The notes under the pieces: model-generated
Databases searched by the model: none
What the model was told of the DNA's origin: nothing
The model's input: the letters and a program-made list of their open reading frames with translations, nothing else
Shown here: in pieces, positions 3,927 through 48,516 of the stretch
How the letters are laid out: each line of letters begins with the position of its first letter
Numbering within the stretch: the first letter of the stretch is position 1
Assembly (NCBI GenBank): GCA_028713285.1
Contig: JAQTOP010000003.1
Location: forward strand, 1 to 64,000
Direction: 5' to 3'
DNA length: 64,000 nucleotides
Origin: Terrimicrobiaceae bacterium
Lineage (GTDB): Bacteria > Verrucomicrobiota > Verrucomicrobiia > Chthoniobacterales > JAATET01
Position numbers and translations under genes: made by a program

Positions 3927-3974
3927 CGCATTTCAGGTAAGAACTTATGCACAGTTCGCAGTGAGTTATTCACA
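3924..3974 (+). promoter_or_regulatory. Putative promoter (TTGACG-N17-TATGCA) overlapped by two DnaA-box-like 9-mers
   Basis: TTATGCACA (3946-3954) and TTATTCACA (3966-3974), both TTATNCACA, exactly 20 bp apart, upstream of the Lys/Ala-rich ORF. Confidence 0.35.
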
Positions 3975-4021
3975 AAGTTTTCACATTTTCCGCGCCTGCG
4001 GTAAGAGAGGGGGGATATCCA

Positions 4022-4183
4022 ATGGCAGTTGCTAAAAAACCAGCAGCCAAGAAACCTGTCGCCAAAAAAGCTCCGGCTAAGAAAGCCGCAGTGAAGAAGG
4101 CTCCCGCCAAGAAAGCGGCCGCGAAAAAGCCGGTCGCAAAGAAGGCAGTCGCGAAGAAAAAGGCGGCCCCGAAGAAAAAGTAA
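4022..4183 (+). CDS. Histone H1-like Lys/Ala/Pro-rich DNA-binding protein
   Basis: Reading frame absent from the ORF track because it is short: MAVAKKPAAKKPVAKKAPAKKAAVKKAPAKKAAAKKPVAKKAVAKKKAAPKKK. Confidence 0.8.
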   Translation: MAVAKKPAAKKPVAKKAPAKKAAVKKAPAKKAAAKKPVAKKAVAKKKAAPKKK

Positions 4184-4220
4184 CCCTCCATTGGGTGCTT
4201 CGGCATCCAGTGAAGCATCT

Positions 4221-4265
4221 AATTGGGAGAAGCAGTCCACCGCGGCGGCTTCTCCCAATTGTTTT
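4221..4265 (+). terminator. Rho-independent-type terminator
   Basis: Perfect 13-bp inverted repeat AATTGGGAGAAGC / GCTTCTCCCAATT followed by a T-containing tail. Confidence 0.7.
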
Positions 4266-24539: not shown

Positions 24540-24854
24540 ATGAAACCGATCCTGCTCTTCGCATCGATTGCAGCGCTGCTCGCCTCCGCCATTCCGGCGC
24601 AGGCCGGGTCGCGAGTCAGCTTCTTCTTCAGTTCCGGCGGCTACGGCTGCGCTCCCCGTTACTATGCGCCGCCGGTTTGCTACGCGCCGCGTCCTGTGTT
24701 CTATTGCGCGCCCCGCGTCGTCTATTGTCAGCCTGCGCCGATCTATTATGCTCCGGCGCCGGTGGTTTACGCTCCGTACGCGCCGATCTATCGCGCGCCT
24801 GTCGTCGGGGTCGGCGTGAATGTCTGCCCGGTGGCGTTCGGCTGGCGGCGGTGA
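24540..24854 (+). CDS. Small secreted Tyr/Pro/Cys-rich protein
   Basis: Signal peptide MKPILLFASIAALLASAIPAQA then repeated YxAPP/CYAP motifs. Confidence 0.55.
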   Translation: MKPILLFASIAALLASAIPAQAGSRVSFFFSSGGYGCAPRYYAPPVCYAPRPVFYCAPRVVYCQPAPIYYAPAPVVYAPYAPIYRAPVVGVGVNVCPVAFGWRR

Positions 24855-24973: not shown

Positions 24974-25049
24974 GGTGGCCGTAGCTCAATGGTAGAGTCC
25001 CAGATTGTGATTCTGGTTGTTGCGGGTTCGAGTCCCGTCGGTCACCCCA
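24974..25049 (+). tRNA. tRNA-His (GTG)
   Basis: GGTGGCCGTAGCTCAATGGTAGAGTCCCAGATTGTGATTCTGGTTGTTGCGGGTTCGAGTCCCGTCGGTCACCCCA; anticodon loop TTGTGAT, G-1:C73 pair, encoded CCA. Confidence 0.95.
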
Positions 25050-25439: not shown

Positions 25440-25763
25440 ATGAACACGACCATGCCCCTGCACATCGAGAACGACATCCGTCACGCCGACCGTCGCCACC
25501 CGGTTGACTTCATTGAACCCGCGCCAAGCCGCGACGATAGCATTCAGCGCACTTGCGAGGTCCTCCGCCAGACCTTCGGCTGGGTGGCGCAAGGTGCGAC
25601 CGTTGAGCAGAAAGGCCTCCGCGCTTCGGTCGTCCTTTATTGCGTTCGGGCCGACCTGATCGGCGCTCGCACCCTCCTTGAACTCGCCTTGCTGACCGGA
25701 GCACCACCGCTCGCGCTCAATCAACTCGTGGCGGATTTCTGCCACCGCATTAACTGGAAATGA
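25440..25763 (+). CDS. Hypothetical protein of the mobile region
   Basis: ORF with ATGA-type overlap with the downstream Toprim gene. Confidence 0.5.
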   Translation: MNTTMPLHIENDIRHADRRHPVDFIEPAPSRDDSIQRTCEVLRQTFGWVAQGATVEQKGLRASVVLYCVRADLIGARTLLELALLTGAPPLALNQLVADFCHRINWK

Positions 25764-26767
25764 ACTCCCTGCCGCTTCATGGGGAACATGGCGGCGGGGT
25801 CACACCGACCCTCGCCGACCAACTGAGGGCCATTTCCTTGCCCGCGTTGCTCGCATGGCACGGATTGGCTCCCAGGCCGGAGGGGGCGAGTTTCCGGGCA
25901 AAGTCGGATCATCATAATCTCGTCGTGACCGGCAACCGCTGGTTCGACAACAGGACAGGAACGGGTGGAGCCGGAGCCATCGACCTGCAAATGCACCTCA
26001 CCGGCGAGGACTTTTCCGCCGCATCCCGCACACTCGCGGATCAATTTCGGCCTGCGGCCATTTGCCGCCAAGGCATCATATTTCCGTCCGCAAGTGCCAA
26101 TAAGTCCGACTCCGAGCGGCTTCCTTTCCCCCAGCTCATGGCGAAATACGCCGTGAAGGACGACGGCAATTGGTCGATTGCTCGCGCCTACTTGGTCGAA
26201 ATGCGGGGGATCGAACCGGCCATCGTGGACGAACTTCATGCGGTCGGTTCGATTTTTGCGAACGATCATCGCCCGAATCCGAGCCTCGTCTTCCTTCACC
26301 GAACCGATTGCGGAAAGGTCCTGGGGGCGACCTTGCGGGAAACCCGACAGGATTCGGCTTTCCGCCCCTGCCTCGGAAATAAACTCACTGCCTGGTTTGC
26401 GGTTGGCAGTGTCCGGGACGCACACGCGGTCGCCGCGGTCGAATCCCCCATCGACGCCTTGAGCTATTACTGCCTCTACGCGGGCCGAACCGACCGACTC
26501 GCCGTCGTGAGTTGCAGCGGCTCGACCGTGCCAGCGGAGCTGATGGTTCAAACATACGACCGCCGCCAATCGTTTGTCGTTGCTCTCGATAATGACGCCG
26601 CCGGAGAGCGAGGTTGGAAAAAGGCATGGGATGAAACCGCGGACTGGTCGGGTTTCAAAATCACGTCTGACCGTCCATTGCGGAAGGATTGGAACGCCGA
26701 CCTTTTGGCCGTGCGGCCACCGGGCAAGCAACGGCAGCGCCCTCAGCACTCGCTCTTCCATGCCTGA
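25760..26767 (+). CDS. Toprim-domain / DUF3991-like plasmid primase-type protein
   Basis: AVAAVESPIDALSYYCL and FVVALDNDAAGERGWKKAW (Toprim-type acidic motifs). Confidence 0.65.
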   Translation: MNSLPLHGEHGGGVTPTLADQLRAISLPALLAWHGLAPRPEGASFRAKSDHHNLVVTGNRWFDNRTGTGGAGAIDLQMHLTGEDFSAASRTLADQFRPAAICRQGIIFPSASANKSDSERLPFPQLMAKYAVKDDGNWSIARAYLVEMRGIEPAIVDELHAVGSIFANDHRPNPSLVFLHRTDCGKVLGATLRETRQDSAFRPCLGNKLTAWFAVGSVRDAHAVAAVESPIDALSYYCLYAGRTDRLAVVSCSGSTVPAELMVQTYDRRQSFVVALDNDAAGERGWKKAWDETADWSGFKITSDRPLRKDWNADLLAVRPPGKQRQRPQHSLFHA

Positions 26768-27043: not shown

Positions 27044-27256
27044 ATGCCTCAGCCCATTGCTGACCTCCACACGACCATTCTCGAAGACTACTTCTTCCGC
27101 TACATCGACCGTCGAATCGGTGCGGACGAGACGCCGCTTTTCACGCAGACGCTCGACGGAGAGGCCCTTTCCGCCGTCATCGCCCGAGAGTTCGAGCTGC
27201 CATTGCACTACGCGGAGGCAGCGATCGACATGGCCCGGATCGAGGTCGCGCTATGA
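27044..27256 (+). CDS. Small hypothetical protein
   Basis: MPQPIADLHTTILEDYFFRYIDRRIGADETPLFTQTLDG; ATGA overlap with ardC. Confidence 0.5.
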   Translation: MPQPIADLHTTILEDYFFRYIDRRIGADETPLFTQTLDGEALSAVIAREFELPLHYAEAAIDMARIEVAL

Positions 27257-27828
27257 GCCGGGACATTTACGAGGCCATCACCGCGCGCTTCATCGAGCAG
27301 TTGAAAAGTGGGACGGTGCCGTGGCAAAAGCCGTGGCTCTCGGCGCAGAACATCGTTTCGCAGAAGCCGTATCGCGGCATCAATTCCCTCCTGCTTGGCT
27401 CCGCTCCTTTTAAGTCACCCTTCTGGGTTTCGTTCAAGCAGGCCCTCGACCTTGGCGGTCACGTCCGCAAAGGCGAGAAATCCACGCCGGTTATCTATTA
27501 CAAAGTTCTCGAAAAACGGGACGCCGAAGGAAAACTTTTCGTGCGGGCAGACGGCACGCAGGCCCGAGTTCCGTTCATTCGCTGGTCGAATGTCTTCAAT
27601 CTCGACCAGACCGAGGGAATCACGCCACCGGCCTTAACCCTCCCGCAGACCGACCAGCGGCCATGCGAAAAGGCGGAGGCCATTGTTGCCGAGGCCAAAC
27701 TCTGCCCGATCCATCATGTGGGCTTTGCGGCCATTTACTCCCCGCAGCGCGACGTGATCCAGATGCCAGCGTCCGCCACTTTTCGCACGTCGGAGGACTA
27801 TCACCACACGCTCTTTCACGAAATGATC
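27253..27828 (+). pseudogene. ardC: ArdC-family antirestriction/zincin protein, N-terminal part, interrupted by RIT element
   Basis: MSRDIYEAITARFIEQLKSGTVPWQKPW...RGINSLLL...VRKGEKSTPVIYYK...FHEMIH; frame runs on into RIT left end. Confidence 0.85.
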
Positions 27829-27915
27829 CATAATGCCGAAACAGGGATTATGCCGTATGGCCTGCGCAGGAGGCCTGTTGGCCGAGCTCTGTCCATGCGG
27901 TGGTTCGGCATTATC
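27829..27915. repeat. RIT left terminal inverted repeat
   Basis: CATAATGCCGAAACAGGGATTATGCCG...TGCGGTGGTTCGGCATTATC; about 8 differences from the reverse complement of the right end. Confidence 0.9.
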
Positions 27916-27942
27916 CTGACTACTCAGAAACCACTGAGTACC

Positions 27943-29166
27943 ATGAATACAACCGATAAATTGAAGAGCTGCGTCGATCCTTATGTGGACTCGTTCGCAG
28001 AAAGCTTTGCCGCTTCCCACTACAAGGAGGCGACGATCAAAACCTACAGGAATCTCGTGCGGAAACTGGGCCGCCTGATGGATGCCGCCGGGGTCGCCCC
28101 CTCGGCATTGACCCCTGACCTTGCTGATCAACTGGCGCGAACGACGGGGCGAGGACGAAATGCGGCGATCCGCTTTCACCATCTTGCCCGACGATTTGCA
28201 GAGCATCTGATTGATATCGGAGTGGCACAGCCGGTGCCATTGACCGAAGCTCAGATCGCACGGGCGGCGTTGCTGGCGGACTACGAAGCCTATCTCGTCA
28301 AGCAGCGAGGTCTGAGCCCACGCTCCATCTATCATGTTTTGCGTTTTGCTCACCGGTTCCTCGATTATCGTTTTGGAACTGGTAAGATCGACCTGACACG
28401 TCTTCGGGCCGCCGACACCATGGGCTTCGTTCAGCACTTGCTGACCAACAAGTACCCGTATCGACACAGGCCAGCCACGACCCATCTTCGGACCTTCTTC
28501 CAGTATCTGTTCGGGCGCGGGGTAACGGCGAGCAACCTGGCCCTGAGTCTCCCCAAGACGGCAAAGCGCTGGAACGCGAGGTTGCCCCGGCACTTGTCGC
28601 CCGATGGGGTTGAGGCCGTTCTTTGCTCGGTGCGAGGGAACCCCCAGCATGGCGCGCGCGATTATGCCATGCTGATGATGATGGCGCGGCTCGGTCTCCG
28701 CGCGGCCGAGGTCATCGCAATCCAGCTCGACGACATTGACTGGCGTGCGGGTGAGTTGCTGGTCCGCGGCAAGGGTAAGCTCCATGATCGCTTGCCGATC
28801 ACAGCCGAGGTTGGCGAAGTCCTGAGCCGATATCTTCGTGAGGAGCGTGGTGAGACGAGTTGCCGAACAGTGTTCGTCACGCACCGGGCGCCGCATCGTG
28901 CGTTCAAGGGCGGCCAGATCGTCAATGCCATCCTCAAGGATGCCTTGGCCGCAACCGGCCAGAAGCCGGTTACTCCCTATGTGGGATCGCATCTTCTGCG
29001 TCATAGTCTGGCAACCCTCCTGGTGAATGCGGGAGCGTCAATCGACGAGGTGGGCAATGTCTTGAGGCACCGATCACGAACCTCGACCATGGTGTATGTG
29101 CGGCTCGATATCGACGGGCTGAGATCCATCTCGCAGCCCTGGCCGCTGGCAGGAGGTGTGCAATGA
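27943..29166 (+). CDS. RIT tyrosine recombinase A
   Basis: LGLRAAEVIAIQLDDIDW, RGKGKLHDRLPI, SHLLRHSLATLLVNAGASIDEVGNVLRHRSRTSTMVYVRLD. Confidence 0.88.
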   Translation: MNTTDKLKSCVDPYVDSFAESFAASHYKEATIKTYRNLVRKLGRLMDAAGVAPSALTPDLADQLARTTGRGRNAAIRFHHLARRFAEHLIDIGVAQPVPLTEAQIARAALLADYEAYLVKQRGLSPRSIYHVLRFAHRFLDYRFGTGKIDLTRLRAADTMGFVQHLLTNKYPYRHRPATTHLRTFFQYLFGRGVTASNLALSLPKTAKRWNARLPRHLSPDGVEAVLCSVRGNPQHGARDYAMLMMMARLGLRAAEVIAIQLDDIDWRAGELLVRGKGKLHDRLPITAEVGEVLSRYLREERGETSCRTVFVTHRAPHRAFKGGQIVNAILKDALAATGQKPVTPYVGSHLLRHSLATLLVNAGASIDEVGNVLRHRSRTSTMVYVRLDIDGLRSISQPWPLAGGVQ

Positions 29167-30104
29167 ACCTCACGCCTCAACTCGACCAATACTTGAGCGT
29201 CAGACGCAGCCTTGGTTATGATCTTCGCACCGCTGAGCGTGTGCTTCGCCGCTTCGCCCGGTTCGCCGATCAAGAAACGGCTCCGCATATCGACACTGCG
29301 CTGTTCCTGCGTTGGGAGGCGAGCCTGCCCAATGCGGGCAAATCGACGCGATCGGCCCGGCTCAGCATGGTGCGACTGTTCACACAATGGCTGAGTAGCC
29401 TCGACCCGGCCCACGAAGTGCCACCGCGCGGGCTGCTGCCCGCCGGCTCCGGCCGACCCCGCCCGTATATCTATAGCGAGGCCGAGATCGCATCGATCAT
29501 CGCTGCGGCTAAGACGCTGCGGTCGACCTACGGCCTGCGCGGGTTGACCTGCTCGACCTTGTTCGGGCTCATCACCGTCACCGGCCTCAGGATCAGTGAA
29601 GCTCTGGCGCTCGACCCGAGCGACCTCGACGTCGAGAACGGCGTGCTGCACGTCCGGCATGGGAAGCTGGGCAAGGAACGACTGCTGCCGCTCGACCCAA
29701 CGGTAGTGGTGCAACTCCTTAGCTATGCGACCGAGCGCGACCGGCTGCTTGGACGTGTCCCCGATGCGTTCTTCGTCACCTGTCAGGGAACGAGATTGAC
29801 CGACTGTAGCGCACGTTACAACTTCGCGCACACCTGCCAGCGGATCGGCTTGCGAGCTGACCAGCATTGCAGCCGGCATGGCCGGGGACCGCGCATCCAC
29901 GATCTTCGCCACACCTTCGCCGTGCGGACGATGATCAACTGGTATCGCACCGGCAAAGATCCGGCACGGGAGATGATCCGGCTGACGACCTATCTGGGCC
30001 ATACTTCCCCCGACAATACGTTTTGGTACCTGGAAGCAGTGCCAGAGTTGCTTGATCTGGCAATGGCCCGGGCCATCTCCAATGGCGAGGAGGCAGACCA
30101 ATGA
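29163..30104 (+). CDS. RIT tyrosine recombinase B
   Basis: TGLRISEALALDPSDLD, GKLGKERLLPL, IHDLRHTFAVRTMINWY, YLGHTSPDNTFWYLE. Confidence 0.88.
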   Translation: MNLTPQLDQYLSVRRSLGYDLRTAERVLRRFARFADQETAPHIDTALFLRWEASLPNAGKSTRSARLSMVRLFTQWLSSLDPAHEVPPRGLLPAGSGRPRPYIYSEAEIASIIAAAKTLRSTYGLRGLTCSTLFGLITVTGLRISEALALDPSDLDVENGVLHVRHGKLGKERLLPLDPTVVVQLLSYATERDRLLGRVPDAFFVTCQGTRLTDCSARYNFAHTCQRIGLRADQHCSRHGRGPRIHDLRHTFAVRTMINWYRTGKDPAREMIRLTTYLGHTSPDNTFWYLEAVPELLDLAMARAISNGEEADQ

Positions 30105-31093
30105 ACGCCGCCACCTTGCCCGCGCTGATCCAGCGCTTCTTCACCGACCGGCTGTGCGTTCAGATGGAGGCCAGCCGCCATACAGTGGCAAGCTACCGCG
30201 ACACGTTCCGCCTGCTCTTGCGGTTCGCGAGCACTCGACAGGGCAAGCCCCCAGCCAAACTTACGGTCGAAGACATTGACGCCGATCTGGTCGCCGACTT
30301 CCTCGTTCACGGCGAGACCATGCGAGGGAATACGGCGCGTAGCCGCAATACGCGACTGGCCGCGGTTCGCTCGTTCTTCCGCTACGTCGCGTTGACTGAT
30401 CCCACCTGGCTGCTCCACAGCCAGCGCATCCTGGCGATGCCCAGCAAACGCTATGTGAAGCGCGCGGTGAGCTTCCTCGACGCCGAAGAAATGGCGGCAC
30501 TGCTGGCGGCTCCGGACCGCACGACCTGGACGGGGCGACGTGATCACGTGATGCTCCTTATCGCGATCCAGACAGGCTTGCGGGCTTCCGAACTGGTGGC
30601 TCTGCGGTGCGGCGACCTTACGCTTGGCAGCGGCGCTCATATCCGCTGCATGGGCAAGGGTCGGAAGGAGCGTTGTACGCCTCTGCGTCGTGACACCGCC
30701 AAGCTGCTTGTGGCATGGATCGGCAACTGTTCGGACGACACCAGACCGTTGTTCCCGTCGATCCGGGGCGAGGGACTGAGCCGCGATGCGCTTGAGCATC
30801 TGGTGCGCAAGCACTGCCTCACCGCCTCGCGCACGTGCCCGAGTCTTGCTGCTAAGCGGGTCACGCCACATACGCTTCGCCACAGTACCGCGATGGACTT
30901 GCTTCATCATGGTGTTGATCAAGCGGTGATAGCCCTCTGGCTCGGACATGAGTCAGTCGCGACCACCCAGATCTACATCCACGCCGACATGCGGATAAAG
31001 GAAAAGGCCCTCTCCCGTGTCGCCGCTCCGGCGCTGCCGCCAGGACGCTTCCAACCCGATGACCAACTTCTCTCGTTCCTCGATGACCTCTGA
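30101..31093 (+). CDS. RIT tyrosine recombinase C
   Basis: TGLRASELVALRCGDL, GKGRKERCTPLR, TPHTLRHSTAMDLLHHGVD, WLGHESVATTQIYIHAD. Confidence 0.9.
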   Translation: MNAATLPALIQRFFTDRLCVQMEASRHTVASYRDTFRLLLRFASTRQGKPPAKLTVEDIDADLVADFLVHGETMRGNTARSRNTRLAAVRSFFRYVALTDPTWLLHSQRILAMPSKRYVKRAVSFLDAEEMAALLAAPDRTTWTGRRDHVMLLIAIQTGLRASELVALRCGDLTLGSGAHIRCMGKGRKERCTPLRRDTAKLLVAWIGNCSDDTRPLFPSIRGEGLSRDALEHLVRKHCLTASRTCPSLAAKRVTPHTLRHSTAMDLLHHGVDQAVIALWLGHESVATTQIYIHADMRIKEKALSRVAAPALPPGRFQPDDQLLSFLDDL

Positions 31094-31178
31094 TAATGCC
31101 GAACCACCGCATGGCCAAAGCCCGGCCAATAGGCCTCCAGCGGAGGCCATGCGGCATAATCCCTGTTTCGGCATTATG
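31092..31178. repeat. RIT right terminal inverted repeat
   Basis: Reverse complement CATAATGCCGAAACAGGGATTATGCCGCATGGCCTCCGCTGGAGGCC... matches the left end. Confidence 0.9.
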
Positions 31179-31181
31179 GAT

Positions 31182-31202
31182 CTTATGCCGAATCGGCATA
31201 AG
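31182..31202. repeat. Perfect 21-bp palindrome at the RIT right junction
   Basis: CTTATGCCG-AAT-CGGCATAAG. Confidence 0.9.
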
Positions 31203-31667
31203 ATTCACGCGACCGGTCACGGTTCGCGACTGGATCGCGAAGGCATCACCAAGCCGGCGAAGTTCGGTTCGGATCGCTACTCGCGGGAAGAATTGGTTGC
31301 CGAGCTTGGCGCGGCCTTCCTCTCGAACGAGGCCGGAATTCTGAACGACGTTCAATTCCAGAACGCCGCCTCCTACCTCGCTTCATGGATTCAGAAGCTC
31401 GAAAACGATCCGAAGCTGATCGTTTCCGCCGCCGCGCAGGGCCAGCGCGGCAGCGATTTCGTTCGCGGCATCCAGCATGTCGAGGGCGTGTCCGAGCAGG
31501 AGCCGGTGTTTGCCATTGAGGAACCGGGCGTCGTCGAGAAGCCGGAACTCGTCCCTGCTTCACTCGCCGGAGAGAGCATTCCTGCTCGCTCTTCATTCAT
31601 GCCAGCGCGGCGAAGTCACACCGAGACGATGCCGCGCCAGACTCAGCGGAGGGGAATGACCCTATGA
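31203..31667 (+). pseudogene. ardC: ArdC-family protein, C-terminal part, downstream of RIT insertion
   Basis: IHATGHGSRLDREGI...EELVAELGAAFLSNEAGI...NAASYLASWIQKLENDPKLIVSAAAQ continues the interrupted gene; a restart ATG lies at 31185 within the junction palindrome. Confidence 0.85.
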
Positions 31668-32420: not shown

Positions 32421-32651
32421 ATGCCGCGCAACGCAAAACCCGGCACGACCCGCATCGACCTGGACATTTCCGTGGGAGCGAAATTGCGCTTCGCGACCAT
32501 TCACGACGCGCTCGGTTTCAAAACGAAAACCGAGACCTTCGAGGCCATCGTCTATGCCATCTCGACCGAGGGAAAAATCGACCCGCACACGCTTGAACGC
32601 ATCGAGCGCAAGCTCGACCGCCTCACGGAACACCTGGAGGATTTCGCATGA
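32421..32651 (+). CDS. Small relaxosome accessory-like (RHH-type) protein
   Basis: MPRNAKPGTTRIDLDISVGAKLRFATIHDALGFKTKTETFEAIVYAIS; immediately upstream of relaxase with ATGA overlap. Confidence 0.6.
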   Translation: MPRNAKPGTTRIDLDISVGAKLRFATIHDALGFKTKTETFEAIVYAISTEGKIDPHTLERIERKLDRLTEHLEDFA

Positions 32652-33775
32652 AGAATGGAATGATTTTTCCATTCAAGAAGACGTGGCGATCACGCCTCGA
32701 TCTGGAATACCTCGACGAGAATTCCGAGCGGAAGCATTCGTCGCGGCAACGCTCCGGCGAGTCGTTGGAAAATTCCCGCGCGGGAAAGCAGCTCAAACAA
32801 TTTGCCGACTACGCCTCGAAGGAAACGCTCGGGCAGGTTCACGCCGGCGGTTTCTTCCATCAATTGATCCTCGCGAACCCGGACGGCACGCGCTCCGCGC
32901 CGTCCCAGCTCACCAACGCGGAAAGAAAACATCGGATTTCCGAAGCGTGGTTCGAGCACATCCGAAAGTTTCCCACATCATCGGATAATCCCGTCATCCA
33001 GCATCGCCTCGTCTTCACGATGTCGCAGCCGTTTCACGACAAGCTCGTGGCGGCCGGCATCAATCCCGATCGCGTCCTGCAGTCCACGATGAAAAAGATC
33101 ATGCGGAAATTTGCGGAGCGGTTTCATCCTCATGATGCCATCGGCTACGCCTACGGCATTCATCACGACACGGACCACCTTCACGTCCATGTCGCGCTCT
33201 GCCCACGCACGGCGAAAGGAGGCTATGTCGGATGCAGCATGTCCCGGTCAAATACCGCCGGGAACAAGAACCAGATGACCTACTTGAAAACGTGCTTCGA
33301 GCAGGAGAACCAACGCTGGAGCCAGCTCCTCGATTCCCCGGAAAAGTTGCAGGCGCTTCTTTCGCAGCGGTTCGACGCGGACCGGATCACGTTTTCTCCA
33401 CGTCTGACGAACGCGCACGCGGAGGCGCTGCGGAACGCGCAGACTGCCGAGGCGATCCATTTGCAACGCTCCTTTCAAAGCATCCGCAATCTCGAAGCGG
33501 CCATTGTCGCCAAGCGCCAGTTTCTCGCGGCGAAGCGCAACGCGAATTTCCTCTCGCGTTTGCTGCGTCAGCGCAAACCCAAGTTCACCCGCACGGCGGA
33601 AAAAATCGCCGCCGCCGTGGATCGCCGTTCTCTCCGCGAAATGCAGACGCTCCTTTTCCAAATCAAGCGCGACTACCGCGCCGCCCACAAACGCTACTCG
33701 AAAACCCACGGATTCGACTCCTATGCCCATCGAAGCTCCCACGCGCCTACCCACCGGCAGCAGAACACTCTCTGA
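32648..33775 (+). CDS. Conjugative relaxase, HHH-motif mobilization protein
   Basis: AYGIHHDTDHLHVHVALCPRT = relaxase motif III; LVFTMSQPF upstream. Confidence 0.8.
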   Translation: MKNGMIFPFKKTWRSRLDLEYLDENSERKHSSRQRSGESLENSRAGKQLKQFADYASKETLGQVHAGGFFHQLILANPDGTRSAPSQLTNAERKHRISEAWFEHIRKFPTSSDNPVIQHRLVFTMSQPFHDKLVAAGINPDRVLQSTMKKIMRKFAERFHPHDAIGYAYGIHHDTDHLHVHVALCPRTAKGGYVGCSMSRSNTAGNKNQMTYLKTCFEQENQRWSQLLDSPEKLQALLSQRFDADRITFSPRLTNAHAEALRNAQTAEAIHLQRSFQSIRNLEAAIVAKRQFLAAKRNANFLSRLLRQRKPKFTRTAEKIAAAVDRRSLREMQTLLFQIKRDYRAAHKRYSKTHGFDSYAHRSSHAPTHRQQNTL

Positions 33776-33971
33776 TTTCGTCGTTTGTCAGAACTTCGTG
33801 TTTCGGCCCGCGAACGTGGACGGCTGCTCGCACCTCACCTACGAGGACGGCACTGCCGTCACGACCGTAAATTTCAAATCCTATACGCAAAGTATTCCCG
33901 ATCCAGAGCGGCGGCTTTTCGATTTTCTCGTCAGTCGGCTCAATCCCAAATCCAGCGATGAAACTCATTGA
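33723..33971 (+). CDS. Small hypothetical protein between relaxase and T4CP
   Basis: MPIEAPTRLPTGSRTLSDFVVCQNFVFRPANVDGCSHLTYEDG; overlaps both neighbours. Confidence 0.5.
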   Translation: MPIEAPTRLPTGSRTLSDFVVCQNFVFRPANVDGCSHLTYEDGTAVTTVNFKSYTQSIPDPERRLFDFLVSRLNPKSSDETH

Positions 33972-35490
33972 TTCGTTTCTATTTCTGGCATCCCTCATCG
34001 GTGCGCTCGCGGGGTATTTTCTGCTCGTGCCTCCGCTTTCGTTCGTCGTCATTGGCTTGGGCGCGACTTTCGCGGCGTGGAGTTTGTTCGCCGACTCCAA
34101 TTCCGGGAAAGTCGTTCTCCGACTCGGCGGCGTTTCGTGGTCGATGGAGGATTTCGTTCGCGGCTGGCTCGTCACCGGACGCACCGGCTCGGGTAAGACC
34201 CAATCCGCGATCAACGCGATCACGTTCCAGATTTTTCAGAACGTCAAAAATTGGGGCGGAGTCTGCCTCGATCAAAAAGGCCTCTATTGGGAAATCCTCG
34301 TGCAGATGGCCGCGCACTTCGGACGTGGCGAAGACCTCATTTTGCTGCAAACGCGGCCGGAAGGAAAAGATGCGCTCTGGCGTCCGCCGCACACTATCAA
34401 TCTCACGGGAAACCTCGGCGTGCCCGCATCCACCTACGCGAAGGTCATCGTGGATACCGCGATGTCGCTCACCGGCGGACGAGGTAACAATCCCTTTTTC
34501 CCGACGAAAGCCCAACTCGCGATTCAGACCGCGTTCGAAATCCTTCGGCACATCGACGCCTACGTCACTATTCCGAACATCCATCGGCTACTGCTCAACC
34601 CGGAAGACTCCGACGCGACGTTGGAGACGCTGATGAATCGAGGCGATCAACGTTCGCACGAACTCCTCACCGCGTTTCGTGGCTATCTCGACCAACCGCC
34701 GGAGCAGCTTGGCGGCGTGCAAGGCACCCTCAGCACGTATCTCGAGTTTTTTCTCAATCCGGAAATCTCCGAGGTCTTTTGTGCGAACGAGCCGACGTTT
34801 TCCGTCTCCGAGATCGACACCGGAAAAATCGTTTGCCTCGCGATGCCGCAGAAGTTTCAGAGCGAACGGCTCTACATCAACACGATCCTGAAACTGTCCT
34901 ACTATTTCCATGCCCTCAGCCGGTTTGACAAATCCGCGGAGGAACGCGCGGCGGCCAATCTCATTATCCTGTTCGCGGACGAGGGGCAGGAAATCATCAC
35001 GGGGGCCGAATCTGCCTTTGCCGATCATCGCGCGGCGGGTGTCATCCGCGAGGCACGCGCGACGATCGTTCTCGCCACGCAAGCCTACACGTCGATTCAC
35101 GGCGCCCTCGATAAACGCTACGCCGACGTGCTCATGCTCAACTTGAGCAACGAACTCATTTTTACCGTCGCGAATCACGACTCCGCCGTCATCGCCTCGA
35201 AGAACATCGGCGAGCGTGAAGTCGTCGAGAAATCCTGGGGCTGGGCCGCGGGAAAGCGGTCCTACAATTACCAGCGAAAGATCAAGCCGTTCTTCGAGCC
35301 GTATCAATTGCGGAAGCTGCCGAAGTTCACTGCCGTCATTCGCCATTGCGAAAAGCCGTTCCGTAAACGGCTCGTCGCACCGATCAATCCCGACGGCACC
35401 TATCCCGCGTGGTTCACGCAATCGCGCCCCGACTACGCACTGCGCCAGAGGCTCGGTAAATCTCGAAAACAACCCGGCTTCCCAACATGA
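33958..35490 (+). CDS. Type IV coupling protein (VirD4/TraD/TraG-like)
   Basis: Two N-terminal TM segments, GWLVTGRTGSGKTQSAINAI Walker A, ANLIILFADEGQEII Walker B. Confidence 0.88.
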   Translation: MKLIDSFLFLASLIGALAGYFLLVPPLSFVVIGLGATFAAWSLFADSNSGKVVLRLGGVSWSMEDFVRGWLVTGRTGSGKTQSAINAITFQIFQNVKNWGGVCLDQKGLYWEILVQMAAHFGRGEDLILLQTRPEGKDALWRPPHTINLTGNLGVPASTYAKVIVDTAMSLTGGRGNNPFFPTKAQLAIQTAFEILRHIDAYVTIPNIHRLLLNPEDSDATLETLMNRGDQRSHELLTAFRGYLDQPPEQLGGVQGTLSTYLEFFLNPEISEVFCANEPTFSVSEIDTGKIVCLAMPQKFQSERLYINTILKLSYYFHALSRFDKSAEERAAANLIILFADEGQEIITGAESAFADHRAAGVIREARATIVLATQAYTSIHGALDKRYADVLMLNLSNELIFTVANHDSAVIASKNIGEREVVEKSWGWAAGKRSYNYQRKIKPFFEPYQLRKLPKFTAVIRHCEKPFRKRLVAPINPDGTYPAWFTQSRPDYALRQRLGKSRKQPGFPT

Positions 35491-40369: not shown

Positions 40370-43300
40370 TTACTGCGACAATGTTCCAGCTAATGAATCA
40401 GAAAAGCCTCCTGCTAGACCGCCCACGAACCCAGTTCCAGCAGCGCCAAATAGATTCACGGCGTTTTCAATTTCAGTACTAATACCAGAATGGCTAGCGA
40501 AAGCTCCCAACCCCCACGCACCCGCCCCTGCCGCAGCACCTATTGCTCCAGATGCAAGCGCCGCACCTACCGTTCCAGAGGGATTGCAAAATGCCGTTCC
40601 ATTAAGAAGGTTTCCTATTAAACTACTAAGAGCCCCTGAAACAAACCCTCCTGCTACCGGATTATCCAGTGATCCCCCTACAAGGCCGCCAATCCCTCCG
40701 GCAATGGCACCTGTTAACGCTCCCCACCCTCCTCCAGAAGCTTGACCTGCGAATCCACCAGAGATGGCTCCGACCACACCACCAACCACTGCCAATACAG
40801 GGTCACGCCCGTCTCGGTCAATTGTCGTAATAGGGCTATTATAGCAATAGCAATAAAGATTTGAGGGAGGATAATTATTCGATGGATCTCGGGATAGCCA
40901 CCTCCCGACTTCTGCGTCGAACGCACGATAGGGGGCGAGCGTCAGCTGCGCTCCTTGGTGATAAAAGTGTCCTGTATAAAGGAATGTGGCGTCCAATGTA
41001 CCGTTCAGCTTTGTGATCCGCCCATAAGGGTCATAGTCGTATTGCGCTACGATGGCCGTAGATGAGTTTGTCATCTCCCGAACACTTCCGAGGTGATCTC
41101 GAGTGTAAAAATAATTGCCAGCGCTCGATCCTCCGATCCATTGTTCCCCGAGAGGATAGAAGCGCTTCGTTACCGTCGTGCCGGTGGCATTGCGCTCCTC
41201 AACGATTCGCAGACCACTCCATATCCAAGTGCGAGTTGTGCTGCCGTTGAGCTTTTCAGACACTCGCCGGTTAAAGCCATCATACGCGAATTCATAGACG
41301 TTCGAGCCGACGGTTATTTTCGTTAGACGGTTCTCAGCATCCCATTCATAGCTCTTCGTGCCGTCTGATAGAAGGTTGCCATTGTTGTCGTAAGTATAAG
41401 TCGCGGTCGACGCTCCCGACGAGGAAACCAACCAGTGCTTAATCGGTGTCGTGTTGTGGTTTGGGCTGTAATCGGTAGCCGTTATCGAGAGGGTCATCGT
41501 CCCCGACGCGTTGATTTGCGTCGAAAAATTGTTTCCAGAATCAACCGGGACACCTGCACCCTGCACCGTAACCGTCGCTGCTTCGTTGGTATGCCCAGCC
41601 ACGAGTAGTTTGCCACCTCCAGAGCGATAGACGAGTTGATTGACAGAATTGGGGGTCCAAGTGGTCAGCGTAGAATCTCGCTGCTCGCTTGTGCGATTCC
41701 AAGCTTTGTCGTAGCCATAGGAGAAAGTCTTGTCCGTCGTGCCGGTGCTTACAACTTTACGTATGGCGGATGTCAGCTCATAAACACCATCGTAGCCATA
41801 AGTATATTGGTTCGCGGCAGAAGCTCCAAGCTGGGTTTGCATGGACTTAATCCGTCCGTCCAACGAGTAGCCCACATAATCAAACTTAGAAAGAATGCTG
41901 GATGGATTAGCGCCGTCGGACAGATTTAGGATTTGTGAAAGCCGACGATCGCCCGAATTTCCAAAGTATTGAAAGGTTGTGGATTGTCGATGCCCAGTTG
42001 TTCCATTTGGATAATCGATTTCTTTGATTCTATTCGTCGTCCCATCATAGACCGGAAATGTGAAACTTCCCAAATTTGTGTCTAACTGAGTGAGGCGACT
42101 TAGATTGTCAAAATACCACATGATCTTGTTTTCAGTGCCCGCAGATCCCACGTTGCTCGTCTTCGAGCGACCGATGGCATCGTAGGTATAAGTGATTTTG
42201 TCGGAAGTCCCACTATCCAAAGGTCCATCTTCAGTAAATAACTTCAACGCACCCAACGTTCCGACCGGCACATAGGTGTAATTCGTCGTGCCAGAGCCGT
42301 CCAACATCGAAGTGACTCGTTTGTAAACGGTGTCGTATCCCCACGATACGCCAGGTGCAGACCCTCCAGAATAGGCAACGCTCGCCAACGTATTATCGAC
42401 ATTGTAGTGATATGTCTTTGTTTGTAGGTTTCCATTTACAAGAGTTGAAAGCCGCCCGCTCAGAGATTCGTAAGTGGACGTTTCCGATTTGGTATCCGCA
42501 TAAATCTTTTTGACCACACGGCCATCAATATCCCTATTCCACTGCGTCGTGTGACCGTTGCCATCGATCATGGAATCAAGGCTGCCGCACTTGCACCATT
42601 TATACTGATTGGTATGGTTAAGGGCGTCGATTTGAGCGACCATCCGGCGAAGGGCGTTATAGCGATAAATCGTCGCGGTTCCCGAGCGATCACGATAAGT
42701 GCCGAGATCAAGTTTATCGTAGGTAAAGTTTTCCGATGAGGTATCGGGATATTGAATCTTGGTCGGGCGGTCGATGTTGTCGTAAAAATATGTAAGTATG
42801 TAGTTATCGCTATTTGTCTTTGTGTAGATTCGCTGGGCGCTATCGTAGGCAAAATTCAGAGTCTCGGCAGTGTTAGGCCGAATAATCGTTTTTAACTTGC
42901 CGTAATCTGCGGCACTGGCAGTCGTTTGATAAATGAACTGCGTCGTCTCATTAAGCGCATTGAGAATCGTGAGAACGCGGCCATGACTGTCATATGTGAA
43001 GGTCGTCGGCTGGCCGGAAGCATCGATATACTTTTTGGGACAGCGTGGTGGATAGCTGGCATTTGGATAGCCTGTATCGTATTGAAACTCTGCGACGGTA
43101 TCGAAGCCGGATGCCGTCTTTTGCTTAATATATTGGACGTCAATTCCGTTGGAAAGATATAGAAAATCCGTTTCCCGCCCTTTCGGATCGGTGATTTTAG
43201 TGACATTTCCTTGAGCATTATATTCATACAGAGTCGCCTGGGTCTTGACGACCCCGGAGGCGTCCTCAACGGTTCGAGCGACGATTTTTGGCTGAGATAC

Positions 43301-45550
43301 CGGCCCAAGCCGAGGCGGATCGTATGGGTTGTCGTAATAATACCAAATGCGAGATTCCAAGGGATCTTTCTCGCTTTCTAAAATTCCGGTGATGATGGAT
43401 CCCGTGCCCCCATCCTTATGCAGCCAGTGATAAATATGCGCTTTCGTATAATCTCCAGGTGCCTCCATCCATTGCTTTTTCGTCCAATAGAAACTATCGC
43501 GATACTGCATGTAGCTGTTTACAAAGGCACCGGAGGGAATTGTATTCGGCGTCCCTGCTGCAGTCGGAACTTCGTTCGTTGGAGCGGTTGTATTGAGTGG
43601 ATTCGAATACGGATTAAATTCGACGCGCTCGATTGCTCCATAAGGGTCTTTAGCCTGGACCCACCGTAAGAGTGGTTCCGGTGAATTCACTCCGGGAATA
43701 TCGCCGAAAATGAAGCTCGTTTTTCCATACGGGGTGGTAAGAGTTGTAAGTTGACCGCTAGGATTGTATTCAAAACTCGACGTAATGAGAACAGGGTCGG
43801 TGATCGATTGTAAGCGCCTGACACCATTCACGGTTGAATATACAAACGACGCATATCGACTGAAACGATCTCTTACTTTAGTTACACGATACGGATCGCC
43901 GTCATTGTACTCAAGTTGAGTGTAATTGGACGCGGCTCCAAAAGTTACCGTTGCATCATAAACTCGGTTAATGCGAGAGGGGTAGATCGCGTCGTATTGA
44001 AACTGGAGTATACTTCCAACAGGATCAATAATCTTGGATAGAAAAATCCTTCGACTGCTTCCAGAACCTACGACCTGCGAGTAAACATAAGAAGCTCCGT
44101 TCTGTAAGGTTCGAGTATAAGTAACCGGCGAGGTTGTAAATTGGAGCGTCGCGGGACTTTGGGTATAGTCTTGGAGGTATTTTCCCGAGGAGGAATTATA
44201 AGTATAAGATTCGGCCCCACCTCCCGGAAGCTGGATTTTCAAGCTACCTGAACCAGTTGTTCCCGAGTCTTCAAGATACGATGCCCAAGAACACTCCCAC
44301 TGCGAGCTAAAATTGGTATATGTTAAGCTGGCTGGCTGATCGGCCTCAACCTGATTGTAGTTAACACGAAGAGTTACGTCGGGACCAAAAGCGGGCTTGT
44401 ATGAAACAGGGGTGTCGCCCACGGTCAGACTGGCTGTCATCGCGAAAAATTGATACTGGGCCATTGGCGATGTCGGGCAGCCTTGACACGTAACGTCGGT
44501 ATTTTTTGTGTCCGAGCCATCTTGTCCGCTGGTGTACCCCTTTCCGAAAACATGCTTAGCCTCCTCATGATCAACGGAGGTCCAGCCATCGGGAAGTTTC
44601 CCAGCAGGGATGAGGAAATAGCCTGAGGCTTCCTGATCGAGCGTAGAGGCAGTGATCCAATGCCTCGTTCCAAATGTCGGATCGACCATCAGGTAGCGAT
44701 CTTTGTTTTTTGCAACAATGGCTCCATAGTGACCGACCTTCCAGTTAACTACGGAAGGAACGATGACCGTCGCGCCCGGAGCGCGCTTGGCCATTTGGAA
44801 ATTCATCCCTAGCTTATCGGCCAAAGCCGCAACCTGCGTTAGCGAAAAGCCGGTGGTTGCAGAAGGTGTTTCCTGGGTAAAATGCGTTCCTACATCTTTG
44901 TTTTTGGAGCGTAGGATCGAAGCCAAAGCCTCCGGACCGCACCGGAACGATACTTCCGGTTTGTTATTCATCATCCACAGACCATCTCTGGCTGCATGCA
45001 AATACACATTGGCACCATCGGCAATCGACCGTCCGTTTAGCGAGCCGAGGACATTCGTTAACTCATCCTTGCGTCCGAGCCTGGACAACATCAGCGAGTA
45101 TTTTGCAATTGCAAAATCCCCGACGCGTTTCGCTTCCGGAGTCGAAAGATCATTTGTTAGCTCCCAAGCATGCTTCCACGCGGCCAAAGCCTTTGTGAAC
45201 TCGCCATCATTGTAAAAGAGTTGTCCCAGATTTAGCCAAACGGAAGCCGTCCAAGACGAATTGGGGAAATCCTCGGCAAATTTTTCCAACGCGGAGTTGT
45301 CGTCTGCGCTATCCTGAGCTTGAAATTCCCGCAATGCCTCGCCCAAGGCATTGCGCTCGGTCTGCGATTGCTTTTCTAAAACTGGAATCAAACCTTCAGG
45401 AAGTGCCGGAAAGCTTGTTAACTCCTGTAAGGACGGAGACGCGGAAACTGGAATTTCTCCACTGCCCGCATTTGAATTCTGTAGCCAAGCCGTCGAGAAG
45501 ACGACCGCAAGCCCTACTGCGAGTGTCTTTGATGATTTAATCATTATCAT
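40370..45550 (-). CDS. Rhs/YD-repeat protein with N-terminal TPR-like and C39-type peptidase domains
   Basis: C39 triad candidates: FRCGPEALASIL, WKVGHYGAIVAK, YLMVDPTFG; tens of YDxxGR-type repeats; core-end YRAFDAEVGRWLSRDPSNNYPPSNLYCYCYNSPITTIDRDGRD; Gly/Ala-rich tip. Confidence 0.88.
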   Translation of the reverse strand: MIMIKSSKTLAVGLAVVFSTAWLQNSNAGSGEIPVSASPSLQELTSFPALPEGLIPVLEKQSQTERNALGEALREFQAQDSADDNSALEKFAEDFPNSSWTASVWLNLGQLFYNDGEFTKALAAWKHAWELTNDLSTPEAKRVGDFAIAKYSLMLSRLGRKDELTNVLGSLNGRSIADGANVYLHAARDGLWMMNNKPEVSFRCGPEALASILRSKNKDVGTHFTQETPSATTGFSLTQVAALADKLGMNFQMAKRAPGATVIVPSVVNWKVGHYGAIVAKNKDRYLMVDPTFGTRHWITASTLDQEASGYFLIPAGKLPDGWTSVDHEEAKHVFGKGYTSGQDGSDTKNTDVTCQGCPTSPMAQYQFFAMTASLTVGDTPVSYKPAFGPDVTLRVNYNQVEADQPASLTYTNFSSQWECSWASYLEDSGTTGSGSLKIQLPGGGAESYTYNSSSGKYLQDYTQSPATLQFTTSPVTYTRTLQNGASYVYSQVVGSGSSRRIFLSKIIDPVGSILQFQYDAIYPSRINRVYDATVTFGAASNYTQLEYNDGDPYRVTKVRDRFSRYASFVYSTVNGVRRLQSITDPVLITSSFEYNPSGQLTTLTTPYGKTSFIFGDIPGVNSPEPLLRWVQAKDPYGAIERVEFNPYSNPLNTTAPTNEVPTAAGTPNTIPSGAFVNSYMQYRDSFYWTKKQWMEAPGDYTKAHIYHWLHKDGGTGSIITGILESEKDPLESRIWYYYDNPYDPPRLGPVSQPKIVARTVEDASGVVKTQATLYEYNAQGNVTKITDPKGRETDFLYLSNGIDVQYIKQKTASGFDTVAEFQYDTGYPNASYPPRCPKKYIDASGQPTTFTYDSHGRVLTILNALNETTQFIYQTTASAADYGKLKTIIRPNTAETLNFAYDSAQRIYTKTNSDNYILTYFYDNIDRPTKIQYPDTSSENFTYDKLDLGTYRDRSGTATIYRYNALRRMVAQIDALNHTNQYKWCKCGSLDSMIDGNGHTTQWNRDIDGRVVKKIYADTKSETSTYESLSGRLSTLVNGNLQTKTYHYNVDNTLASVAYSGGSAPGVSWGYDTVYKRVTSMLDGSGTTNYTYVPVGTLGALKLFTEDGPLDSGTSDKITYTYDAIGRSKTSNVGSAGTENKIMWYFDNLSRLTQLDTNLGSFTFPVYDGTTNRIKEIDYPNGTTGHRQSTTFQYFGNSGDRRLSQILNLSDGANPSSILSKFDYVGYSLDGRIKSMQTQLGASAANQYTYGYDGVYELTSAIRKVVSTGTTDKTFSYGYDKAWNRTSEQRDSTLTTWTPNSVNQLVYRSGGGKLLVAGHTNEAATVTVQGAGVPVDSGNNFSTQINASGTMTLSITATDYSPNHNTTPIKHWLVSSSGASTATYTYDNNGNLLSDGTKSYEWDAENRLTKITVGSNVYEFAYDGFNRRVSEKLNGSTTRTWIWSGLRIVEERNATGTTVTKRFYPLGEQWIGGSSAGNYFYTRDHLGSVREMTNSSTAIVAQYDYDPYGRITKLNGTLDATFLYTGHFYHQGAQLTLAPYRAFDAEVGRWLSRDPSNNYPPSNLYCYCYNSPITTIDRDGRDPVLAVVGGVVGAISGGFAGQASGGGWGALTGAIAGGIGGLVGGSLDNPVAGGFVSGALSSLIGNLLNGTAFCNPSGTVGAALASGAIGAAAGAGAWGLGAFASHSGISTEIENAVNLFGAAGTGFVGGLAGGFSDSLAGTLSQ

Positions 45551-48516
45551 TGCGGAATGGCCCCTACTGGTTGGTCAAGGGTAATCGTGGGAGGGGTAGT
45601 ATCGGAACTACTGCCGGAAGGCGCTACAGAGCGCGTTGGATCGAGAGGAAAGGCATCCAAAGCATCGCTGACACCGTCTCCGTCGGTATCTGTAAGATAC
45701 GGACTGGTTCCACGTGCGATTTCGGTGGCGTTAGAAATCCCGTCTCCGTCAATATCTGTATTTACCGGATCGATTCCCGAACCAACGGAAATCCCGTCCC
45801 AAACGCCATCGCCATTGGTATCCTTGATTTGCGGATTAGTGCCATAATACAATTCCCATCCATTCGAGAGTCCGTCCCCATCATCATCCGCGATCCATTC
45901 GGAAGGATAGAGGGGGTTGTGAATATCCGCCAAGGCATCGAACAAATCTCCTTTGCTATACGGATTGGTCGTGGGGTTGTTTGGATCATCTTCAAACTCG
46001 TATTCGTATTTGTTGATCAAGCGATCATTATCTGGATCACCAGTTGCGTTTTGTGCCGTCAGATTGCCAAAATACTTGATTTCCCACCAATCGGGCAGGC
46101 CATCACCGCCACCCGTGTCCTGATCTCTAAACTCATCGGCTCCAATATCTGGGGCTAGGCCTGAAGGCCTAGATTCACCCTGGAAATCAAAAGCCGCATT
46201 ATTCGACGCAGCACCGTGGTCGATAGCAAAAGATCCTTTAATAAGATACCCGCTACGAGTTAGTCGAGGATCCCAATTGGTGGCGCCGAATTGCCCACCG
46301 TAAATAATACTATTTTGAACCGTGACGTCGGGCGCGTTAAATTGAATTTCGGGTAGCGCGTTATTGACATTATCCCAAATAATGCTGTTGACGATCCGCA
46401 GCTTTCCGTAACCGGAAATACTGTTTGCATTGGTCCAGCCGGAGTTCCGCATAAAGGTGCAATTTATGAAGGAAACATTGCCGCTAATTATTTGAACTGC
46501 CGCCGCACCAGAAAACCCAGGACCGTTATTATTATCTGAAAAGATACAATTCACAAATCGCTGCTCAAAATTGATACTCCCATAAGTATTGCAATATACT
46601 GCATATCCCGTATAGGCGTAATTGTGGTGCAGCCAAAGTCCACTTACGACGCTCGCTTGGTATAAGTTTAGCATCGAGTCTCCCGACGACGACCCATTTG
46701 TTATCTCCACCGGCTTATTGCCAGCCTCGCCCAACAATAAGACGGGTTTATAAATATAGACAGCCGCCGCGTATGCAGGGCCTTGCTTAATGTCTATCAC
46801 CGCGTAATCGTCATTTGCTCCCAAGGCATTGAGCGCTCCAGAAATAGTCTTGTATTGGTGCGCAGAGGGATTGTCGACTGAGAGATTGGAATTTGCCTGC
46901 AATACGGCTGGCGGGTTGCTTACTGGATGAGTGGGATCAGAGACTCGACCGTAAGTGAATGGAGCCCAGCCGTGTTTATATTCGTATACGTTCGGCACGC
47001 CATCTCCATCGGCATCTTCCAAGCCGTCCAAAATGTCCTTGGGCCGCATACCATGAGCGACTTCATATCCGTCATCGATTCCGTCTCCGTCCGTGTCTGC
47101 ATTGTTCGGATCGGTGCGATAAAAGGCTTCCGCTTGATTGTTTAGACCGTCGCTATCTGGATCGGCAGTTGGATTCGAGACTGTGACGTTGTCGGGATTC
47201 GTAGCATTGGCGGTGACATAATCAGACGCAATCGTTGCATCTGGTATGACATTATTAAACATTTCGATTTCATCGATCACCCCTTTAAGAGGTTGGCTCT
47301 GATACCCGTCGCTGGCAAAAGTTAAACCATAGGAGCCAAATTTAGCGACATCAACATCCAAGTTCCAAACCGTAGAATCGCTTCCAACTAGCGCACCATC
47401 GATAAATAACTTTCGTTGAGTAGGAGTGTAAGTCAGCGCCAATTGGTGCCATTTATTGGGAGTCCAGTAGATGTTATTTGCCGCGGGGGTATTCCAACCG
47501 ATCCAGTGTCCGTGTCCGTCTATTTCGCCGAATGTGAGTTGCCGATAACCTGTTTGGGCGTGTAAAGCCCACCATGCGATGCTATTGTTTCCCGTCCACG
47601 CACCAAGCTCTACAAACCGACTAAAAGTTCCAGACATTGCCGACTGGGAGGGATCCCAATCGGTTTTAAACCAAAATCGGATGGTTCCTTGTTTTAGAGA
47701 AACATTCGACGAACCATCATACCGAGTTCGTGCATACCGGATTGTTTGACCGTTCGTATCAATTCGCAATCCCTTGCCGATAAACCCGTCCACCAGCTGC
47801 GCATTGACAGCCTGAGGAAGCTGCCCTTGGTCAGAAGCCCAATTTAAGCGATCAAAACTAAAAGATGAAATCTTTTGGGCTTTGAAACTAGTGTAATCAT
47901 TGGGATTAGTGTCATCCAGATATTCCTGATAGTTGCTTAGACCATCATTATCGGAGTCGACGAATGGGCTGTTTCCCACATGACCGAAGTATTGAGTTTC
48001 CCAAACGTCAGGCAGCCCGTTTTTATCAATATCAAGAGGCGTAAGATCGGGAACGATCTGAGCGATAATTTGAATAGATTCCGAATATTCTGGAGTGTTT
48101 GTTCCGGGATGTTTCCTTTCGGTTATAAAAGTAACGGTGAAAAGATATGCCGTACTGGATATAATGCCGGTGAGATCTTTCGGAACTTGAAAATTAGAAG
48201 GAGTCGTCGAATCACCAAGACTTGTAATTACAAGATTACCTAAAGAATTAGTATAGCTAAACTGATGAGCTTTCCAGCCTGGAGCTGGCTTCGCCGTGGC
48301 GTTAAAGGTATAAGAAACAGGCTCCAAATATAGATTGCGAGACGCCGAAATGCCCGGATCAGCTTGAACGACGACTTTGCAAGGATTCTTGAACTGATGG
48401 GTCGCAGTCCCGGCGGAGCCCTGTGTATATGTCGCCAACGGAACCGCCTCTGCGGGGAATGCAATAGCCAATAAAACTGCTACAAGCGAGCCAACTTGGG
48501 GCCAAGATTTTTTCAC
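45547..48516 (-). CDS. Secreted LamG / right-handed beta-helix / TSP3-like calcium-binding repeat protein
   Basis: GTG start, signal peptide; GTIRFWFKTDW...NKWHQLALTYTPTQRKLFIDGALVG (LamG); repeated DxDxDGxxD motifs; FINCTF / IVNSIIWDN beta-helix pattern. Confidence 0.8.
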   Translation of the reverse strand: MKKSWPQVGSLVAVLLAIAFPAEAVPLATYTQGSAGTATHQFKNPCKVVVQADPGISASRNLYLEPVSYTFNATAKPAPGWKAHQFSYTNSLGNLVITSLGDSTTPSNFQVPKDLTGIISSTAYLFTVTFITERKHPGTNTPEYSESIQIIAQIVPDLTPLDIDKNGLPDVWETQYFGHVGNSPFVDSDNDGLSNYQEYLDDTNPNDYTSFKAQKISSFSFDRLNWASDQGQLPQAVNAQLVDGFIGKGLRIDTNGQTIRYARTRYDGSSNVSLKQGTIRFWFKTDWDPSQSAMSGTFSRFVELGAWTGNNSIAWWALHAQTGYRQLTFGEIDGHGHWIGWNTPAANNIYWTPNKWHQLALTYTPTQRKLFIDGALVGSDSTVWNLDVDVAKFGSYGLTFASDGYQSQPLKGVIDEIEMFNNVIPDATIASDYVTANATNPDNVTVSNPTADPDSDGLNNQAEAFYRTDPNNADTDGDGIDDGYEVAHGMRPKDILDGLEDADGDGVPNVYEYKHGWAPFTYGRVSDPTHPVSNPPAVLQANSNLSVDNPSAHQYKTISGALNALGANDDYAVIDIKQGPAYAAAVYIYKPVLLLGEAGNKPVEITNGSSSGDSMLNLYQASVVSGLWLHHNYAYTGYAVYCNTYGSINFEQRFVNCIFSDNNNGPGFSGAAAVQIISGNVSFINCTFMRNSGWTNANSISGYGKLRIVNSIIWDNVNNALPEIQFNAPDVTVQNSIIYGGQFGATNWDPRLTRSGYLIKGSFAIDHGAASNNAAFDFQGESRPSGLAPDIGADEFRDQDTGGGDGLPDWWEIKYFGNLTAQNATGDPDNDRLINKYEYEFEDDPNNPTTNPYSKGDLFDALADIHNPLYPSEWIADDDGDGLSNGWELYYGTNPQIKDTNGDGVWDGISVGSGIDPVNTDIDGDGISNATEIARGTSPYLTDTDGDGVSDALDAFPLDPTRSVAPSGSSSDTTPPTITLDQPVGAIPQ

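Follow-up and report, generated by a model that had tools for sequence, protein, structure and literature searches.

A RIT element in ardC of a Terrimicrobiaceae bacterium belongs to a lineage with a probable attachment site in the second histidine codon of HExxH

We analysed a 64,000-nucleotide stretch of DNA from a Terrimicrobiaceae bacterium (GenBank assembly GCA_028713285.1, contig JAQTOP010000003.1, positions 1 to 64,000; hereafter the window), in which the sequence, the open reading frames (ORFs) and the Pfam domains place the antirestriction gene ardC in two pieces with three overlapping tyrosine recombinase genes between them. Comparison of this locus with its relatives makes it likely that the insert is a complete and probably active RIT element whose lineage specifically targets the second His codon of HExxH in ardC. 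The initial annotation of this DNA had proposed that a RIT element disrupts ardC, and ORFs, domains and inverted repeats bear this out; it had treated the insertion as a one-off event, where a census of relatives instead reveals the attachment site of a whole RIT lineage. Since members of this lineage almost always insert at the same active-site codon, we favor targeted homing over chance disruption of a gene. RIT elements themselves are already known, whereas target specificity for ardC is new as far as our literature search shows: the search returned no report of ardC as a RIT target or of a tyrosine recombinase insertion in ardC, and a mention in Ricker 2013 or Nielsen 2017 is possible.

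Results

The insert matches the published description of RIT elements (PMC3414803) and is complete. RIT elements have been described as units of about 3.5 kb with three overlapping tyrosine recombinases in the order A-B-C and inverted repeats with an overlapping palindrome (Van Houdt 2009/2012; PMC3414803, PMC2864759), and the window element shares the adjacent, overlapping trio, the terminal inverted repeats and the palindromic sequence (Table 1). RitA, RitB and RitC are all full length, contain PF00589 and overlap by 4 bp; compared with plasmid-annotated trios, identity is 64-75% for RitB and 78-83% for RitC. The repeats around ritABC have 91-nt arms that are 92% complementary when one 6-bp spacer is counted in each, and are about 85 bp long without the spacers. 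These repeats had been proposed as the bounds of the insertion, which stands as far as the arms are concerned, while a palindrome at the right end with a 6-bp spacer on either side had been overlooked.

The 5′ piece of ardC encodes ArdcN (PF08401) and the first part of MPTase-PolyVal and the 3′ piece encodes the rest of MPTase-PolyVal; the ArdcN and complete MPTase-PolyVal domains that mark ArdC when present in one protein are here split over two ORFs. The cut lies within the second His codon of HExxH, after CA (CA|Y). The terminal repeat starts with a T, which completes the His codon on the 5′ side and keeps HEMIH readable there; in the 3′ half, a His codon is likewise present, encoded by the outer spacer together with the following C. 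The ardC reading picks up again at 31203-31208 (IHATGHGSRLDRE) and stops at 31667. The motif had been thought to be split at the metal ligand, which is correct for the codon that is cut, although both halves retain a His codon. In addition, the 5′ half of ArdC and RitA form a single open frame of 637 aa across the terminal repeat.

The RIT occurs once in its own genome and is closest to alphaproteobacterial copies, and at E<=1e-80 RitC was found in only 5 of 385 genomes of the window's class, its own genome included. An assembly chimera, which had been named as a possible refutation, is very unlikely because dozens of independent assemblies, as well as complete plasmids, show the same junction. 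The search for an empty site, also proposed earlier, was successful: intact ardC genes of relatives from the same order are contiguous over the junction, and in G018 query positions 1-579 and 3954-4225 adjoin at 24610/24612 within an intact ardC.

For the census of relatives, 80 loci were gathered by RitC alone, with their flanks ignored, and plasmid copies brought the total to 89; flanks were examined with ArdC proteins and junction patterns. In plasmid BLASTN, relatives of the RIT were ~67-76% identical at the nucleotide level, and several were annotated beside antirestriction or zincin fragments. Junction patterns were present on the N side (ardC 5′) in 58 loci, on the C side (ardC 3′) in 55 and on both sides in 46, and homology to ArdC was confirmed on the N side in 56, on the C side in 53, on both sides in 45 and on either side in 64. 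All 64 ardC-flanked loci are cut at the same codon, after CA of the second His of HExxH, and the window, with this cut and with its palindrome on the ardC 3′ side, is a member of this ardC-targeting lineage. Clade members without ArdC homology comprise 13 contigs that break off at the repeat, and three real exceptions. In L092 and L095, no ArdC is recognisable past the junction; in L061 (3648-7110), a RIT of the ardC clade lies in another gene, has the usual palindrome and is flanked on its two outer sides by the 6-bp repeat TTCCCT.

The interrupted ardC genes of the lineage are often only 30-40% alike. At a threshold of 50% identity, their ArdC 5′ halves separate into 18 clusters, and those most similar to the 5′ half of the window share 34-38% identity with it; we conclude that many of the insertions were independent. 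The hosts named in the records represent ~30 genera, mostly Alphaproteobacteria, from several phyla, with single hosts labelled Gammaproteobacteria, Thermodesulfobacteriota, Acidobacteriota and Verrucomicrobiota, several being metagenome-assembled genomes.

These results leave next to no probability for a RIT with loose or random target choice that landed in ardC and disrupted a single gene. Published RIT insertions do lie in assorted genes with no stated specificity (radC, IS66 tnpA and a Tn6049-like transposase; PMC3414803, PMC2864759), and L061 sits outside ardC, as chance would predict; however, 64 loci at one codon of such dissimilar ardC genes effectively refute this explanation, the assorted target genes sort into clade-specific targets, and the 18 ArdC clusters speak against descent from very few insertions.

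The junctions of the lineage share a common layout, which reads ardC 5′ half, 6 bp (NNNNCA), RIT in either orientation, 6 bp, 20-bp palindrome, 6 bp, ardC 3′ half. The end toward the ardC 5′ half is a bare repeat, and the end toward the 3′ half consists of a 6-bp spacer, the palindrome (usually TTATGCCGATATCGGCATAA) and a second 6-bp spacer, independently of which end of ritABC faces the 5′ half; ardC and the rit genes run in the same direction in 23 loci and in opposite directions in 19. The N, inner and outer spacers (GATCCA, GATCCA and GATTCA in the window) all have the form NNNNCA in ardC sense, where the search pattern imposed CA in the N and outer spacers and fixed only the two repeat-adjacent bases of the inner one; the same form was also seen in an unbiased junction listing. 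Spacers of one locus equal each other more often than shuffling predicts (N and inner, 8 versus 1.5; N and outer, 12 versus 2.2; inner and outer, 8 versus 0.94; 0 of 20000 shuffles were as high), which suggests that inner and outer spacers derive from past ardC sites. A pattern search of the 385 genomes of the window's class for solo palindrome scars hit one genome, itself with a RIT in ardC, and revealed no scar.

Empty sites were also found on plasmids, where the intact ardC genes L125, L126 and L127 match interrupted copies at 97-99% identity across the 5′ half and run through the cut point without a break. They provide empty and occupied sites on the same backbone (L125 for L016, L020 and L129; L126 and L127 for L021, L043 and L128). 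The N spacer is the native 6 bp in six of six insertions with a known empty site, which cover two ardC groups, and the outer, C-side spacer is foreign in four of the six. An alternative is spread by descent or homologous recombination: ardC::RIT would have arisen on few occasions and been disseminated by plasmids and by exchange among ardC copies. Loci that are near-identical over several kb (L018/L050 and L034/L035) point this way, and RIT-RIT recombination can account for the L100/L101 arrangement described below. We nevertheless consider such descent very unlikely, since the ArdC halves are too diverged for homologous recombination, empty and occupied sites share a backbone, and the native spacer is kept on the N side.

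Another possibility, which we judge improbable, is that the RIT merely inverts in place as a phase switch and stays in ardC with no real transposition. Both orientations do occur within the same ardC backbone (L021/L043 and L020/L129), and the equality of N and inner spacers in some loci, including the window, would permit inversion. L020 and L129, however, have RITs that are 99.97% identical over 3350 bp in opposite orientations within the same Acidiphilium ardC, and flanks that are 94-97% identical, which indicates that the RIT arrived separately. Their spacers (N GGGGCA, inner CGGCCA and outer GGGGCA in L129; N GGGGCA, inner GGGGCA and outer CGGCCA in L020) are incompatible with inversion in both the inner and the outer position, and on these grounds in-place inversion was rejected as the sole mechanism. 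The spacers of L020 instead match what would be expected of a circle made from L129 and integrated via its other junction. Identical RITs in different ardC paralogues likewise contradict inversion: in one Novosphingobium genome, a 4550-bp unit of RIT and cargo is 100% identical in the two paralogues L032 and L057, and under the same spacer rule their spacers are consistent with L032 as donor and L057 as recipient. In Mesobacterium pallidum, one contig contains two 100% identical RITs (L100 and L101), one with ardC 3′ halves on both sides (C-C) and the other with 5′ halves on both sides (N-N); a circle of ~29 kb with its own ardC::RIT may have fused by RIT-RIT recombination into a replicon carrying another.

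In about 20 loci, the repeat and ritA are separated by an additional 1.0-3.1 kb. Among RITs in ardC, the cargo of L037 (1411-3596) is a chromate transporter with ChrB and that of L064 (772-3672) is a mercuric-reductase-like oxidoreductase with a MerR-type regulator. Other cargo genes encode a sulfate permease (L053), a DAHP-synthetase-family enzyme (L047), an aminotransferase V (L060), an NADH:flavin oxidoreductase (L055) and an alpha/beta hydrolase (L044); L050 carries a conserved pair of genes, the larger of which lacks a Pfam match, and L038 and L040 were judged by eye to have a transposase-like gene in the cargo position.

The targets of other RIT lineages were identified by reading the flanks for motifs, from established family knowledge and not by profile search. 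We take them to be IS66 TnpC at DNNxxE in L069, L074, L105 and L122 and at a second site, away from DNNxxE, in L109; an IS3-type transposase at DNPFS/E, the Glu region of DDE, in L106; tyrosine recombinases at HxLRH in L093, L096 and L098; and radC at HNHPSG/DP in L123 and L124. The RitC tree has six target classes and five changes between them, which is the minimum. The published insertions in radC and IS66 fit these classes (PMC2864759, PMC3414803).

The target ardC of the window belongs to a region resembling an integrative and conjugative element (ICE) at 24975-63000, which adjoins tRNA-His (24975-25049); no direct repeats of at least 22 nt bounding the region were found there. Type I restriction-modification genes had been reported from this part of the DNA, and the region indeed contains HsdR (Table 1). 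A low-GC block (40370-50675, ~48%) encodes an RHS-repeat protein of 1726 aa, which weakly matches C39 peptidase, as well as a TSP3/laminin-G protein and a TPR protein.

Table 1. Features of the interrupted ardC gene, its RIT element and the neighboring region (positions in the window)
Feature	Position	Strand	Remarks
toprim/primase-like gene	25760-26767		
ardC 5′ half	27253-27830	+	ArdcN single-stranded DNA-binding domain and start of zincin domain with HEMIH; ends at CA of the second His codon
N-junction 6-bp spacer	27825-27830	+	GATCCA; NNNNCA pattern found in 58 loci
RIT element, terminal repeat to terminal repeat	27831-31176	+	
left terminal inverted repeat	27831-27915	+	starts with TAATGCCG; arm 27825-27915 with spacer counted
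ritA, tyrosine recombinase	27943-29166	+	in frame with ardC 5′ half (ORF 27253-29166)
ritB, tyrosine recombinase	29163-30104	+	
ritC, tyrosine recombinase	30101-31093	+	
right terminal inverted repeat	31092-31176	+	ends with CGGCATTA; arm 31092-31182 with inner spacer counted
inner 6-bp spacer	31177-31182	+	TGGATC, reverse complement of GATCCA
palindrome	31183-31201	+	TTATGCCGAATCGGCATAA, 19 nt (20 nt in relatives, always on the ardC 3′ side)
outer 6-bp spacer	31202-31207	+	GATTCA
ardC 3′ half, including outer spacer	31202-31667	+	from IHATGHGSRLDRE; remainder of zincin domain
relaxase	32648-33775		
coupling protein	33958-35490		
type IV secretion system-like protein	56463-57335		
type I HsdR	60374-62623		

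Discussion

Our results lead us to propose that the mobile form of these elements would be a circle of RIT and palindrome with two RIT/palindrome junctions, and that this circle might recombine with ardC via either junction, which would account for the finding of either RIT orientation in ardC. The native 6 bp would remain at the ardC 5′ side, while the 6 bp of the junction used would pass to the 3′ side, a footprint pattern like that described for strand-biased circularizing integrative elements (SE) and Tn554 in the parts of the 2023 comparison used here (PMC10214605). With the variable residue before the His of HExxH covered by the spacer and the invariant codons located within the arms, a conserved protein motif would supply the DNA target; this would also explain how very different ardC genes are tolerated.

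Several observations weigh against this proposal. The ardC arms have no obvious likeness to the RIT half-sites, and the role of the palindrome was deduced from its position. The L021/L043 pair misfits a single-step spacer history, and the spacer-history rule itself was devised after the data had been seen and draws on two clean pairs. The support for mobility is comparative, drawn from empty sites and from identical copies at different sites, and the location of L061 outside ardC means that the specificity is strong, not absolute.

With respect to other systems, the target rule, the 6-bp spacer system, the fixed side of the palindrome and the cargo set the present elements apart from the RITs of PMC3414803 and PMC2864759, where they have no description. 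SE elements and Tn554 resemble the present elements in having several tyrosine recombinases and target specificity, and the proposed 6-bp footprint has its counterpart in theirs, in which the 6 bp of the target lie at one end and those of the donor at the other. In contrast to SE elements (IntA-Tfp-IntB-Srap) and Tn554 (TnpABC), the window has only three RIT-type recombinases between its repeats, and the consulted sections on SE elements and Tn554 describe neither a 20-bp palindromic linker nor the use of either junction and either orientation (PMC10214605). The window element may work like SE elements and Tn554, but by its gene set it is a member of neither. GInt islands also combine three recombinase-type genes with site-specific integration (PMC5385486, PMC10214605); they are genomic islands with a fourth essential gene, ginD, unlike the compact 3.4-kb element of the window.

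R388 ArdC resembles the product of the window gene in its single-stranded DNA-binding N-terminal domain and in a metalloprotease domain where HExxH is followed further downstream by a Glu ligand; it keeps its host-range function when a metal ligand is mutated (E229A), and its authors propose that it acts through DNA binding (PMC7213743). Unlike R388 ardC, the window gene is divided within HExxH, at its second His codon, which places the third ligand on the other fragment. The 5′ half retains the DNA-binding domain and HExxH intact and is open in frame into RitA. Loss of function, with the weakened evasion of restriction that had been suggested earlier, retention and altered function are all possible outcomes. 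A stronger claim would be that the insertion is functional for ardC, in that the 5′ half fused to RitA would be the active product and the RIT would act in regulation or domain swapping. The open 637-aa frame and the conjugation function of R388 ArdC, for which the protease is not needed (PMC7213743), speak for such a role, which we nonetheless regard as quite improbable: in several relatives (e.g., L016 and L020) the frame of the 5′ half ends within the element after a few tens of residues, and the fusion is therefore not conserved.

Considering all lineages, we lean toward the view that RITs as a group are homing elements, each lineage of which would use codons of a catalytic motif in one enzyme family, mostly on mobile elements, as its attachment site (HExxH of ardC, HNHPSGD of radC, DNNxxE of IS66 TnpC, the Glu region of IS3-type transposases and HxLRH). 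The ardC lineage would thereby ride on conjugative plasmids and ICEs, sometimes with cargo, via a palindrome-linked circle and 6-bp footprints. We do not claim that the catalytic-codon rule is universal, because L109 lies off DNNxxE and no target gene was assigned to L121 or to the L107/L108/L110 group.

The target choice and movement of RITs have been open since their first description, and the 2023 comparison, in the parts cited here, marks target specificity, empty site and movement of RITs as NT ("not tested") (PMC10214605). The attachment site, the spacer rule and the matched empty and occupied sites now make both target choice and movement testable. Since ardC is borne largely by conjugative elements, homing to ardC would carry the RIT between cells, and our findings suggest a route for accessory genes, such as those for chromate, mercury and other functions, onto conjugative plasmids. 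Our findings also indicate that an ardC annotated in pieces on a plasmid can reflect a RIT insertion, and that catalytic codons may serve as a landing place for site-specific elements.

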